Shown here in pieces: positions 17,267 through 54,616 of a stretch of DNA of 64,000 nt. Under the pieces are notes generated by a model. It was not told the origin of the DNA and did not search any database. It was given only the letters and a program-made list of their open reading frames with translations. A program made the translations under genes and the position numbers. Where the stretch lies: NCBI RefSeq assembly GCF_001484195.1, contig NZ_LLYW01000019.1, positions 1-64,000 of the forward strand, given 5' to 3'. The stretch is from Thermococcus celericrescens (GTDB lineage: Archaea > Methanobacteriota_B > Thermococci > Thermococcales > Thermococcaceae). Every line of letters begins with the position of its first letter. The first letter of the stretch is position 1.

Positions 17267-17869
17267 ATGATAATCATCGTGACTGGAATGCCCGGTTCGG
17301 GAAAGAGCAGGATTGTCAAGGAATTCGAGAGGAGAGGCTTTCCGAGCGTTTCTATGGGAGACGTCGTGAGGGAGGAGACAGTAAAGCGCGGTCTGGAGCT
17401 GACCAAGGAGAACGTTGCCAAGGTGAGCATCCGCCTGAGGCAGGAGCTGGGTCAGAATGCCGTTGCAAAGCTGACGGTCGAGAAGGTGAGGCGCCTCCTT
17501 GAGGGCAGCAGGGTCGTCGTTATAGACGGCGTCCGCTCCCTCGACGAGGTTGGAACCTTTAGGAGCGCTTTTCCGACGGAGGAGATAATAATACTCGCCG
17601 TTCACACGCCGCCACACACGCGCTTCGAGAGGCTCAAAGCCAGGGGCAGACACGACGACCCGAGGACGTGGGAGGACTTCGAGGAGCGCGACTGGAAGGA
17701 GCTGAAGTTCGGCATAGGCAACGTCATCGCGATGGCCGACCACATGATAGTGAACGACTGCAGTAGGGACGAATACGAGGAGAGGGTAAGGGAGCTCGTT
17801 GACTTTCTTTTGTCCAAACTTCGCCCCTCAGGCCGGGGAGGAGGTCAGAGGATTCTAGCCGAGCATTGA
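17267..17869 (+). CDS. UPF0200 P-loop nucleotide kinase-like protein
   Basis: A 200-residue protein with P-loop GMPGSGKS at 7-14, then FPSVSMGDVVREE, the pattern of the UPF0200/AAA_17 family related to adenylate and dephospho-CoA kinases. VVVIDGVRSLDEV is the second acidic strand, and the Arg-rich lid RLKARGRHDDPRT follows. No substrate has been firmly assigned to this family. The ATG at 17267 is chosen over an upstream GTG at 17258. Its 3' end overlaps the convergent ZIP gene by 15 bases. Confidence 0.85.
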   Translation: MIIIVTGMPGSGKSRIVKEFERRGFPSVSMGDVVREETVKRGLELTKENVAKVSIRLRQELGQNAVAKLTVEKVRRLLEGSRVVVIDGVRSLDEVGTFRSAFPTEEIIILAVHTPPHTRFERLKARGRHDDPRTWEDFEERDWKELKFGIGNVIAMADHMIVNDCSRDEYEERVRELVDFLLSKLRPSGRGGGQRILAEH

Positions 17870-51996: not shown

Positions 51997-52018
51997 ATTT
52001 TACTTTTTTTCTCTTGAA

Positions 52019-52407
52019 AGCCTCGTCCTTTAGAGCTGGGATGCAGTAATCGGTAATCCGGCCTTCCAACAGTCGAAACCCTTTTAAACTTTGGGGTGTA
52101 GTAAGGCCTCGGAGGGGCCACTCAAAGACAACCCGATGGGACGAGGGGTTTCAGCGTGTCCTCCCGCCATTGGGAGGAAGACGCCGTAAGGCGTCCTTTC
52201 AAAAACCGCCTTTAAGCGGTTCGAAACCTGATGAGTGGCCTTAAGCGATAACCCCAATCCGCTTTGGCGGTAGGGGTAACGGGTTCAAGGCCGAGCCCTC
52301 GGGCCGAGCTGAAACCGGCGACGGGAGTAGGTGGATGAGAGCCCGAAAACCTCTCCGCAAGTGGCGAGGGGATTAAGCCGAACCTCGGCCAGGCGGAGAG
52401 GAGGTCA
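52019..52407 (+). mobile_element. Non-autonomous IS605-like element with a structured non-coding RNA core
   Basis: 389 bases without a convincing gene. The left tip AGCCTCGTCCTTTAGAGC matches the left tip of TnpB element 2 (AGCCTCGTCCTTTGGGGC). The right end AACCTCTCCGC...GGCGAGGGG...GGAGAGGAGGTCA matches both TnpB elements. The interior is unlike tnpB and full of compensating helices: 52116-52124 with 52232-52240 (GGCCACTCA closing stem), 52147-52152 with 52223-52228, hairpins at 52160-52177, 52180-52195 (GTAA tetraloop), 52204-52221, and a nested stem 52251-52277. 52350-52358 pairs perfectly with 52393-52401. Best read as a MITE-like derivative expressing or encoding a folded RNA, mobilised in trans. 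Confidence 0.7.
52116..52240 (+). ncRNA. Predicted multi-helix RNA domain inside the small element
   Basis: A 9-bp stem (GGCCACTCA / TGAGTGGCC) closes a junction of four elements: an inner GGTTTC/GAAACC stem, CCTCCC-GCCATT-GGGAGG, GACGCC-GTAA-GGCGTC with a GNRA loop, and AACCGC-CTTTAA-GCGGTT. All stems are perfect in sequence. This does not match archaeal RNase P RNA or SRP RNA as I know them. Transcription is not shown; a TTTTAAACTT stretch near 52082 could be the TATA box on this strand. Confidence 0.5.
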
Positions 52408-52994
52408 GAGCTCCACGAACTCCCAGCCCTCGCGGTGGGTCTCTATCCCCTCCGCCTTTACTCCCAGTGACCTTATCTCCTTCTTCAGCCCCCACAGAAA
52501 CTCTTCAAAGGCCTCATCATCGGTCAGAACCTCGTAGCTTTCCGGATACTCATCGCGGAGGAGTTCCTGGAATTCCCTTCCCGATGCACGGAGGTTGAGC
52601 ACTTCAAAGAAGTAGTAGTCCGCAAAGTCCCTCGTATCCTCGACTATGGCGGAAACGTCCGTTATCTCCGGAATTATTGGGCTGACGAAAACGTATGTTT
52701 TCAAGCCCGCCTCGTGGAGCTCTTTGAGGGCGTTAACCCTCGCCTCGTGAACCGGCGTCAGCGGTTCAAAAAGCCTCTTCTCCCTTCCGGTGAAGCCGTT
52801 TATCGTGAGGCCAACCTCTATCGTCCGGAACTCTTTGAAAAGGTCGATGTCGCGAGCTACCAGCGGCGATTTGGTGAGCACCGAAAGTTCGTTCCTCTTG
52901 TCCATGTACCTCAAAACCTTTCTCGTGAGCTTTAACTCGGCCTCTATAGGCTGGTATGGGTCGCTCACTGTTGACATGACATTTTTCTTTTGCA
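52405..52994 (-). pseudogene. Radical-SAM protein, C-terminal part (gene split by TnpB element 2)
   Basis: About 195 residues reading NVMSTVSDPYQPIEAELKLTRKVLRYMDKRNELSVLTKSP and so on to GWEFVEL. This is the C-terminal two thirds of a spore-photoproduct-lyase-like (SplB/Rv2578c-type) radical-SAM protein. It has no own cysteine motif and no start signals; the first residues come from the mobile element flank. The stop codon TGA lies inside the right tip of the small element (52405-52407), so the original C-terminus may also have been lost. The other part is at 54442-54616. Confidence 0.85.
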
Positions 52995-54441
52995 AGCCTC
53001 GTCCTTTGGGGCAGGGTACGAACCCAGCTAGCCCTTAAGCGGGAAAGCAATGCCCTTTTAAAGCCTAAGAGTCATACCATGCTTTGAGATGAAGCGCTCG
53101 GTAACGGTCAAACTCCAGCCGAGCAAGGAGCAGGAGAAAGCACTCTTCGAGTTAGCTCACGCTTCGGCAGTAATCTGGAACAAGCTGAACTACCAGCGTT
53201 TAAAACAATTCAAAGAATTCGGCAGGATTGATTTTAACGGAACTGAAAAGGAAGCTTACCACGAGTTCAAAAACTGGATTGGCGGCTCAACAGTCCAGCA
53301 ATTGGCCAGAAAGAACGCCGAAAGCTGGCGCTCATTCTTCGCACTCAACAGGAAGAAAAAGAATGGAGAATTGCCGGAGTGGTTCAGGCCGAAACCGCCC
53401 GGCTTTGTCAGGGGGGAGAACGGCAGGAAAGTCTTCCTCATCCCACTCCGGAACGACCAGTACAGGATTGACGGGAACGTCGTCGAGTTGAGGCGCCTTG
53501 GAAAATTTGGAAGATTGAGGATTCAATTCAAGGGGAAAATTTACCTCAGGGGCAAGCAGGGAAGGTTAGAGATAACTTACGACGAGGTAAAGCGAAAATG
53601 GTATGCTCACATCAGTATCACAGTGAAAGAAAAACTAATCAACGACGAGTGGGTGAAAGTCCCAAAACAACCCTTGGGCGACCTTTCAGCGGGAATTGAC
53701 TTGGGAGTGAACAATTTAATGGCGGTCTACGTTGAGAATGGTAAAAGCTTCCTCGTGAACGGGAGACCATTAAAGAGTATCGCCTTTTACTGGCGGAGGA
53801 GAATAGCCGATTATCAGTCCAAACTCAACAAGAGTGGTGCAAAGAAGAGTAAGAAGCTCAAAAGAATGCACGAGAAGGCTAAACTTCAGGCAAAGCATTA
53901 CATTAACACTGTTGTAAGGCAGACTGTCGAGAGGCTTTATCAGTTAGGCGTTTCTACCATTGTTGTCGGTTACCCGAAGGGTATCAGTAGGAATTCCGAT
54001 AAGGGTGCGAGGCAGAATTTCCTCCTCTCCCACGTGTGGAGGTTTAATACTGTCATTAAACGCTTGAAGGAAGTGGCTGAGGAGTATGGTATTCTGGTTG
54101 TGCTTGTTGATGAGGTTTTCACTTCCCAGCTTTGCCCTCTCTGCGGCCAGCGCCATTCTAATGGTAGAATCTTTAGAGGTTTGTTTAAGTGCCGTGGAGA
54201 GGGCGTTGTCATGAATGCGGATTTAGTTGGTGCTTTCAACATTTTGAGGAAGGTTGTGGAAAAGATAACCCCGAGCCTGCCGGGTTTGTCGGCGGGTAGG
54301 GGTAATTGGGGGAAGACCCTCCCGGAGGGGTTCTCCGAACCCCCTTCAAAGAGGGTGATGAGGATTACCCCTCAAACCTCCCCGCCTTTAGCGAGGGGTT
54401 TCCCCGACGGAAACCCCACCCTTTAGGGCGAGAGGAGGTCA
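52995..54441 (+). mobile_element. IS200/IS605-type element 2 carrying only TnpB
   Basis: Left tip AGCCTCGTCCTTTGGGGC at 52995 and right tip ...GGGCGAGAGGAGGTCA ending at 54441. Exact removal of these 1447 bases rejoins the two radical-SAM pieces in one frame (...GSWVE-M-QKKNVMSTV...), which supports both borders. No target duplication is seen, as expected for the family. No tnpA is present, so movement needs a transposase supplied elsewhere. Right-end hairpins (CCCCGCCTTTAGCGAGGGG; GGGGTTTCC...GGAAACCCC) lie over the tnpB 3' end. Confidence 0.85.
53089..54426 (+). CDS. tnpB: TnpB-family RNA-guided nuclease (OrfB), element 2
   Basis: A 445-residue TnpB, collinear with the element-1 copy: catalytic Asp 204 (AGIDLGVNN), Glu 342 (LVDEVFTS) and Asp 378 (MNADLVGAFN). 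Zinc ribbon Cys 349, 352 and 368 are present; residue 371, normally Cys, is Glu, and His 356 is kept. An extra C-terminal stretch (RGFPDGNPTL) is translated from the right-end hairpin, so the likely guide-RNA scaffold overlaps the coding 3' end. ATG behind a conserved CTTTGAG. The frame is intact although the host gene is broken. Confidence 0.92.
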   Translation: MKRSVTVKLQPSKEQEKALFELAHASAVIWNKLNYQRLKQFKEFGRIDFNGTEKEAYHEFKNWIGGSTVQQLARKNAESWRSFFALNRKKKNGELPEWFRPKPPGFVRGENGRKVFLIPLRNDQYRIDGNVVELRRLGKFGRLRIQFKGKIYLRGKQGRLEITYDEVKRKWYAHISITVKEKLINDEWVKVPKQPLGDLSAGIDLGVNNLMAVYVENGKSFLVNGRPLKSIAFYWRRRIADYQSKLNKSGAKKSKKLKRMHEKAKLQAKHYINTVVRQTVERLYQLGVSTIVVGYPKGISRNSDKGARQNFLLSHVWRFNTVIKRLKEVAEEYGILVVLVDEVFTSQLCPLCGQRHSNGRIFRGLFKCRGEGVVMNADLVGAFNILRKVVEKITPSLPGLSAGRGNWGKTLPEGFSEPPSKRVMRITPQTSPPLARGFPDGNPTL

Positions 54442-54616
54442 TCTCGACCCAGCTTCCCCATCTCCCGTAGTCCTTCCACCTCATCAGAAACTTGGCGTAG
54501 CAGTACTCGCATGCGAAGGCACAGCCGACGTACTGGTTGACCGCCCACTCCACGCCCGGAATCTTCGATTTTGTGTAGATGCTCTTGGCGCGCCTCTCTA
54601 TAACCCGAACCTTCAT
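54442..54616 (-). pseudogene. Radical-SAM protein, N-terminal part (gene split by TnpB element 2)
   Basis: ATG at 54616 gives MKVRVIERRAKSIYTKSKIPGVEWAVNQYVGCAFACEYCYAKF, with the CxxxCxxC cluster motif (CAFACEYC) for the [4Fe-4S] and SAM. After RWGSWVE the frame enters the right end of element 2. Together with 52405-52994 this would be a ~254-residue SplB-like protein of unknown substrate. The truncated frame continues 25 residues into the element before stopping at 54365. Divergent from the metalloprotease-like gene. Confidence 0.88.

Follow-up and report, generated by a model that had tools for sequence, protein, structure and literature searches.

How is one to explain a short element that has the ends of a TnpB-carrying transposon, lacks a transposase gene and appears to encode a folded RNA? 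This question is raised by a locus in a 64,000-nucleotide stretch of Thermococcus celericrescens DNA (hereafter the window), which an earlier note had read, among other possibilities, as a trans-mobilised element that supplies a guide-RNA scaffold. The element has IS605-type ends, a precise insertion 3' of TTAC, a BRE/TATA-like promoter, a covarying 5' domain and a TnpB-type scaffold. The earlier proposal fits these data, namely the ends of a tnpA-tnpB IS, the scaffold, the covariation and the approximately 200 copies, and we regard it as probable that IS605-type transposons have in this element an RNA-only satellite, one that produces a TnpB guide RNA of its own.

The limits of the sequence shared by 64 intact copies place the window element at 52004-52408. 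The element recognized earlier at 52019-52407 is real, but its left border has to be moved outwards by 15 bp, to the position immediately 3' of the TTAC, and its right border was one base short, the G at 52408 belonging to the element according to 64 copies and the empty sites.

52000..52003, + strand: TTAC target site (left cleavage site and expected TAM), from 64 intact copies and the empty sites of relatives
52004..52408, + strand: whole non-autonomous element, 405 bp, with borders from 64 copies and empty sites
52409..52428, + strand: expected guide segment (flanking DNA, equal to the TTAC-adjacent empty site), predicted from TnpB biology and empty sites

The 64 intact copies were pulled out by a pattern that accepts any base but A as the second of the left-end motif (TTAC in 54, TGAC in 6, TCAC in 4), and hence the informative part is the preference for TTAC; bases outside the motif are random. 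The right end closes with TCAG in 63 of the 64 copies, and the flanks beyond it look random. One copy (L012) lies inside a reading frame that is restored when its flanks are joined, and its site is uninterrupted in four related genomes, which place the junction at (T/C)TAC; the relatives G044, G033 and G014 likewise have no insertion at the window site. These sites show insertion 3' of TTAC without target duplication, and IS608-type transposition likewise inserts 3' of such a target without duplicating it. From the layout and the empty sites, the DNA right after the scaffold is the empty-site sequence adjoining the TAM-like motif. The window insertion falls in the stop codon of a minus-strand radical-SAM gene, for which the right end of the element provides a replacement stop (TCA, that is, TGA).

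The ends are shared with both autonomous and TnpB-only elements:

52004..52040, + strand: left end, a T-rich leader and subterminal hairpin (52021-52028/52033-52040), common to the window TnpB element and L149
52337..52408, + strand: right end, including a subterminal hairpin and the TCAG right cleavage site, homologous to TnpB right ends
52981..54442, + strand: neighbouring TnpB element sharing these ends, its tnpB CDS at 53089-54426 and tnpA absent; TGAC at 52977-52980, TCAT at the right end

The left end is 85.7% identical to that of the window TnpB element over 35 nt, and the match of the tips noticed earlier is confirmed, with 13/13 positions identical at the left and 12/13 at the right. 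Paired bases of the left subterminal hairpin vary in step across copies, and in a whole-genome search element positions 314-389 match alone at TnpB right ends. In L149, a complete 1898-bp IS from another genome, tnpA and tnpB lie between these same two ends, and this autonomous IS605 element shares the subterminal hairpins at both ends. Inside the copies there are no TnpA or TnpB matches, except for the scaffold-coding 3' end in the hybrid L160. The TnpB domain PF07282 has 52 matches in the host genome, where fragments of tnpA occur three times, at contig ends. Autonomous IS605 elements of the IS608/ISDra2 type resemble the element in their TTAC-type target, subterminal hairpins and TCAN-like right cleavage site; unlike them, it has neither tnpA nor tnpB.

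A second left-end type, TTAC followed by CTCGTGAA and without the T-rich leader, occurs in L030, L039, L060, L086, L089 and L090, mainly in one genus (g4), which suggests subfamilies of ends. At 17801-17850 the window also contains a remnant consisting of ends alone (about 47 bp, TTGAC followed by TTTCTTTTG...CGCCCCTCAGGCCGGGGAGGAGGTCAG), which resembles a minimal PATE (palindrome-associated transposable element) belonging to this family.

The 3' portion of the element provides the connection to TnpB function:

52248..52408, + strand: TnpB reRNA (omega RNA) scaffold, then right end, colinear with tnpB 3' ends and covarying
52251-52255/52273-52277, 52281-52286/52293-52298 and 52300-52303/52342-52345, + strand: scaffold helices H1, H2 and H3

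The approximately 160 nt from ATAACCCC (52248) to the right end are colinear with the tnpB 3' coding region and right end at eleven TnpB loci. The contention that the interior is unrelated to tnpB consequently holds for about 52050-52245 and fails for 52248-52408, and to speak of a scaffold "mimic" is too strong, given that the element and TnpB have homologous scaffolds. The three scaffold helices are kept in elements and TnpBs: paired cells make up 98%, and double changes number 45 versus 19 in shuffles (0/500 shuffles as high); one pair is C-G (once U-A) in the elements and A-U in the TnpBs. In two hybrids, L160 (1501-1820) and L091, a TnpB-type scaffold follows the element promoter and 5' domain, the join falling exactly at ATAACCCC, which makes the scaffold a module that satellites and TnpB elements can exchange. 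AmaTnpB works with a TCAC motif and trims its RNA on the 5' side (PMC10278001), which is consistent with the TNAC motif seen here and with the module boundary at ATAACCCC. The element resembles the TnpB reRNA or omega RNA of IS200/IS605 in its scaffold helices, right-end position, expected flank guide and TAM-type motif, but differs in having its own promoter and 5' domain, in the absence of a tnpB mRNA and in needing TnpB in trans.

The shared scaffold, combined with an extra 5' domain missing from TnpB reRNAs, could also serve an RNA parasite or decoy, which would bind TnpB and block or titrate it instead of guiding it, and a portion of a tnpB mRNA is reported to inhibit TnpB cleavage (PMC10278001). 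Such a role is unlikely, in that the element preserves the scaffold and guide junction (TCAG, then flank) of TnpB elements, with a flank identical to the empty site, a layout superfluous to a decoy, although the requirement for transposition ends could by itself also explain it.

Copies with the same borders are found in the host genome and in other Thermococcaceae genomes. The former holds about 20 copies; a whole-genome search recovered 18 that are near full-length and 74-100% identical, and the 96.6% identity of two copies at different sites implies fairly recent movement. Of 94 Thermococcaceae genomes, 62 contain matches to the element sequence, in some cases to right or left ends alone. 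The covariance-model search proposed in the earlier note was run with a model of the 5' RNA domain (R1) and returned 205 matches, distributed over 52 of the 94 genomes, with zero matches in 21 further genomes of the phylum. Covarying homologues and copies with these borders elsewhere, whose absence that note had counted against its reading, are accordingly present. An exact-pattern search of genome contigs gave 3 matches only, in Thermococcus/Thermococcales MAGs, because the copies are divergent, and the plasmid and phage collections searched contained no match to the element. Copy number correlates with tnpB number (rho 0.68, p 5e-14) and is raised in tnpA-bearing genomes, and the element is present in 22 of 25 genomes with tnpA versus 30 of 69 others (p 1e-4), both figures being uncorrected for phylogeny and genome completeness. 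As tnpB is detected in 91 of the 94 genomes, and is thus almost ubiquitous, co-occurrence with it is weak evidence, and the 30 carriers without a detected tnpA imply that many copies may be immobile.

This distribution bears on a further reading, whereby the element would be a regulatory RNA that was domesticated by the host and spread by transposition, either a kink-turn RNA of the sRk48/52 type, bound by L7Ae, or a guide that controls transcription. L7Ae-binding ncRNAs related to orfB, with promoters of their own, are known from P. abyssi, and a kink-loop-like hairpin is present in many copies of the element (33/47, by a loose pattern). Against this, copy number follows transposon load, while the insertion sites, and hence the guides, differ between copies, with few positions shared between genomes, making domestication improbable.

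The 5' half of the element comprises a promoter and a structured domain:

52074..52088, + strand: BRE/TATA promoter (CGAAA ccc TTTTAAA)
52105..52111, + strand: predicted transcription start zone, 17-23 nt 3' of the TATA box, at a conserved AAGGCC
52105..52245, + strand: 5' RNA domain with a closing stem (52114-52122/52234-52242) around four hairpins, from covariation in 47 copies and model R1
52130-52150 (kink-loop-like), 52159-52177, 52180-52195 (GNNA loop) and 52205-52220, + strand: hairpins of the 5' domain
52105..52119, + strand: alternative local hairpin GGCCUC/GAGGCC, which cannot form together with the closing stem (copy L051)

In CGAAAcccTTTTAAA, upstream of the 5' RNA domain, all 64 copies share the AAA in the BRE and one T in the TATA box, most other positions are conserved at 81-94%, and the spacing is compatible with the BRE/TATA rules of T. 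kodakarensis (PMC4247193). Some of the sequence preceding 52105 looks like promoter rather than RNA. A pairing GUCGAAACCC/GGGUUUC suggested by RNAalifold was rejected, as it lies on the promoter and has almost no covariation.

The RNA fold itself is upheld, the predicted structure being more stable than shuffles (z -3.6). The closing stem postulated at 52116-52124/52232-52240 is in the right register and, like three of the four enclosed hairpins, including the one with the GTAA loop, exhibits compensatory changes over the 47 aligned copies, whose mean pairwise identity is about 68% over the core. In the consensus, 92.2% of cells are paired versus 38-55% in slid controls, and there are 104 double-change cells versus 38 in shuffles (0/500 as high). 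G-U cells exceed A-C cells (115:57 and 119:14), which favours the + strand as the RNA. In L051 all three strands have changed together (GGUCUC-GAGACC-GGUCUC), and largely on account of this row the local hairpin and the closing stem may constitute a folding switch. The 5' domain has no homology to tnpB or tnpA and is absent from the parent IS, and Rfam contains no family for it or for the element at gathering and relaxed thresholds. By sequence comparison, then, the 5' half, a multi-hairpin domain of about 140 nt, is the new part, unrelated to tnpB.

PATEs are known to arise by core deletion in Haloquadratum (PMC3119063), and the element might be such a dead derivative, its structure being a leftover without RNA function. 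This is very unlikely, given that the 5' domain is missing from the parent IS, that double changes of the above extent over divergent copies contradict it and that the promoter is invariant at key bases. Least credible of all is a self-splicing, IStron-like intron element, since despite the IS605 ends, the compact RNA and the occurrence of some copies in reading frames, Rfam yields no group I/II intron match, an internal promoter ill suits an intron, and insertions avoid genes, a joined frame of at least 150 aa being found at 16/61 (26%) versus 82% of random window positions.

Returning to an RNA-only satellite as the preferred explanation, its life cycle could be envisaged as follows. TnpA of full IS605 copies would move the element in trans, and its promoter would produce an RNA of about 300 nt whose last 16-20 nt, read from the flanking DNA, would serve as guide. 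Other copies would supply the TnpB that loads this RNA and cuts TTAC plus guide, which is the empty site left by excision, and repair of the cut site from the sister copy would retain the element. That the 5' domain helps the RNA to fold, survive high temperature and reach TnpB outside any tnpB mRNA is a tentative suggestion, to which we accord less than even confidence. Just short of even stands the broader proposal of a class of RNA-only satellites, spread across the whole family, that would give rise to nothing but a guide RNA transcribed from their own promoter, with a dedicated 5' domain capturing TnpB (perhaps L7Ae) in trans and directing it to the defence of the satellites' own insertion sites. 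If true, the homing trick of TnpB would have been taken over by a purely RNA-coding element, a guide-RNA satellite within the enzyme lineage that gave rise to Cas12, and there would be on offer a trans guide RNA that is thermostable, driven by a promoter and equipped with an additional structured domain.

The TnpB of the window (445 aa, 53089-54426) has a G at the canonical RuvC-II glutamate position (VVGYPKG), DLG in RuvC-I and an E six residues before the zinc-finger CxxC (EVFTSQLC). An alternative glutamate position, as in Fanzor-like TnpBs, has been described (PMC10711439), and by virtue of this alternative E the window TnpB may be active. The TnpB element at 52981-54442 interrupts a radical-SAM gene (52405-54616, minus strand), and some of the gene sequence that should lie between the two fragments is apparently missing, which suggests a deletion next to the TnpB insertion.

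By every feature tested the element is of the PATE class of non-autonomous IS605-type elements. Like the PATEs of Haloquadratum (PMC3119063) and Halanaerobium (PMC7290912), it is too short for a transposase and has subterminal palindromes, IS605-related ends and no target duplication; HqIRS71 (PMC3119063) and the Halanaerobium PATE (PMC7290912) also retain part of the tnpB 3' coding region. It differs from them in adding a promoter and a family-wide 5' RNA domain before a full reRNA scaffold, with compensatory changes over 52 genomes. A promoter-driven conserved 5' domain plus full scaffold across an archaeal family was not found in the literature consulted, though an earlier description is possible.

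The P. abyssi RNAs sRkB/sRkC and sRk48/sRk52 are repeated intergenic ncRNAs related to orfB 3' ends, with BRE/TATA promoters and kink-turns, and are transcribed (PMC3124441). The element is similarly repeated, promoter-bearing and related to tnpB/orfB 3' ends, and their transcription makes its own plausible. Identity with them was rejected, as blastn detects no sequence similarity between the four RNAs and the element, and the R1 matches in P. abyssi lie at other loci. The element suggests a possible reading for part of the transposase-related ncRNAs known in Thermococcales since 2011. As for sRk48 and sRk52 (L184, L185), published as related to IS607 orfB 3' ends and having their own promoters, they may represent TnpB guide RNAs that stand on their own and belong to a different family.

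HgcC (RF00062) RNAs of Thermococcales are transcribed from within transposase genes in T. kodakarensis (PMC4247193) and, unlike the element, are without the 5' domain. The HgcC model gives weak matches to TnpB right ends and to the right ends of several copies, the copies scoring about 25-36 bits; with the Rfam gathering cut-off at 50 bits, no copy reaches gathering, and identification of the element as HgcC was rejected. The host genome (G000) contains 53 HgcC-like (RF00062) matches, several of them at TnpB right ends, and what Rfam lists as HgcC may simply be the guide RNA that TnpB uses in Thermococcales and their relatives.
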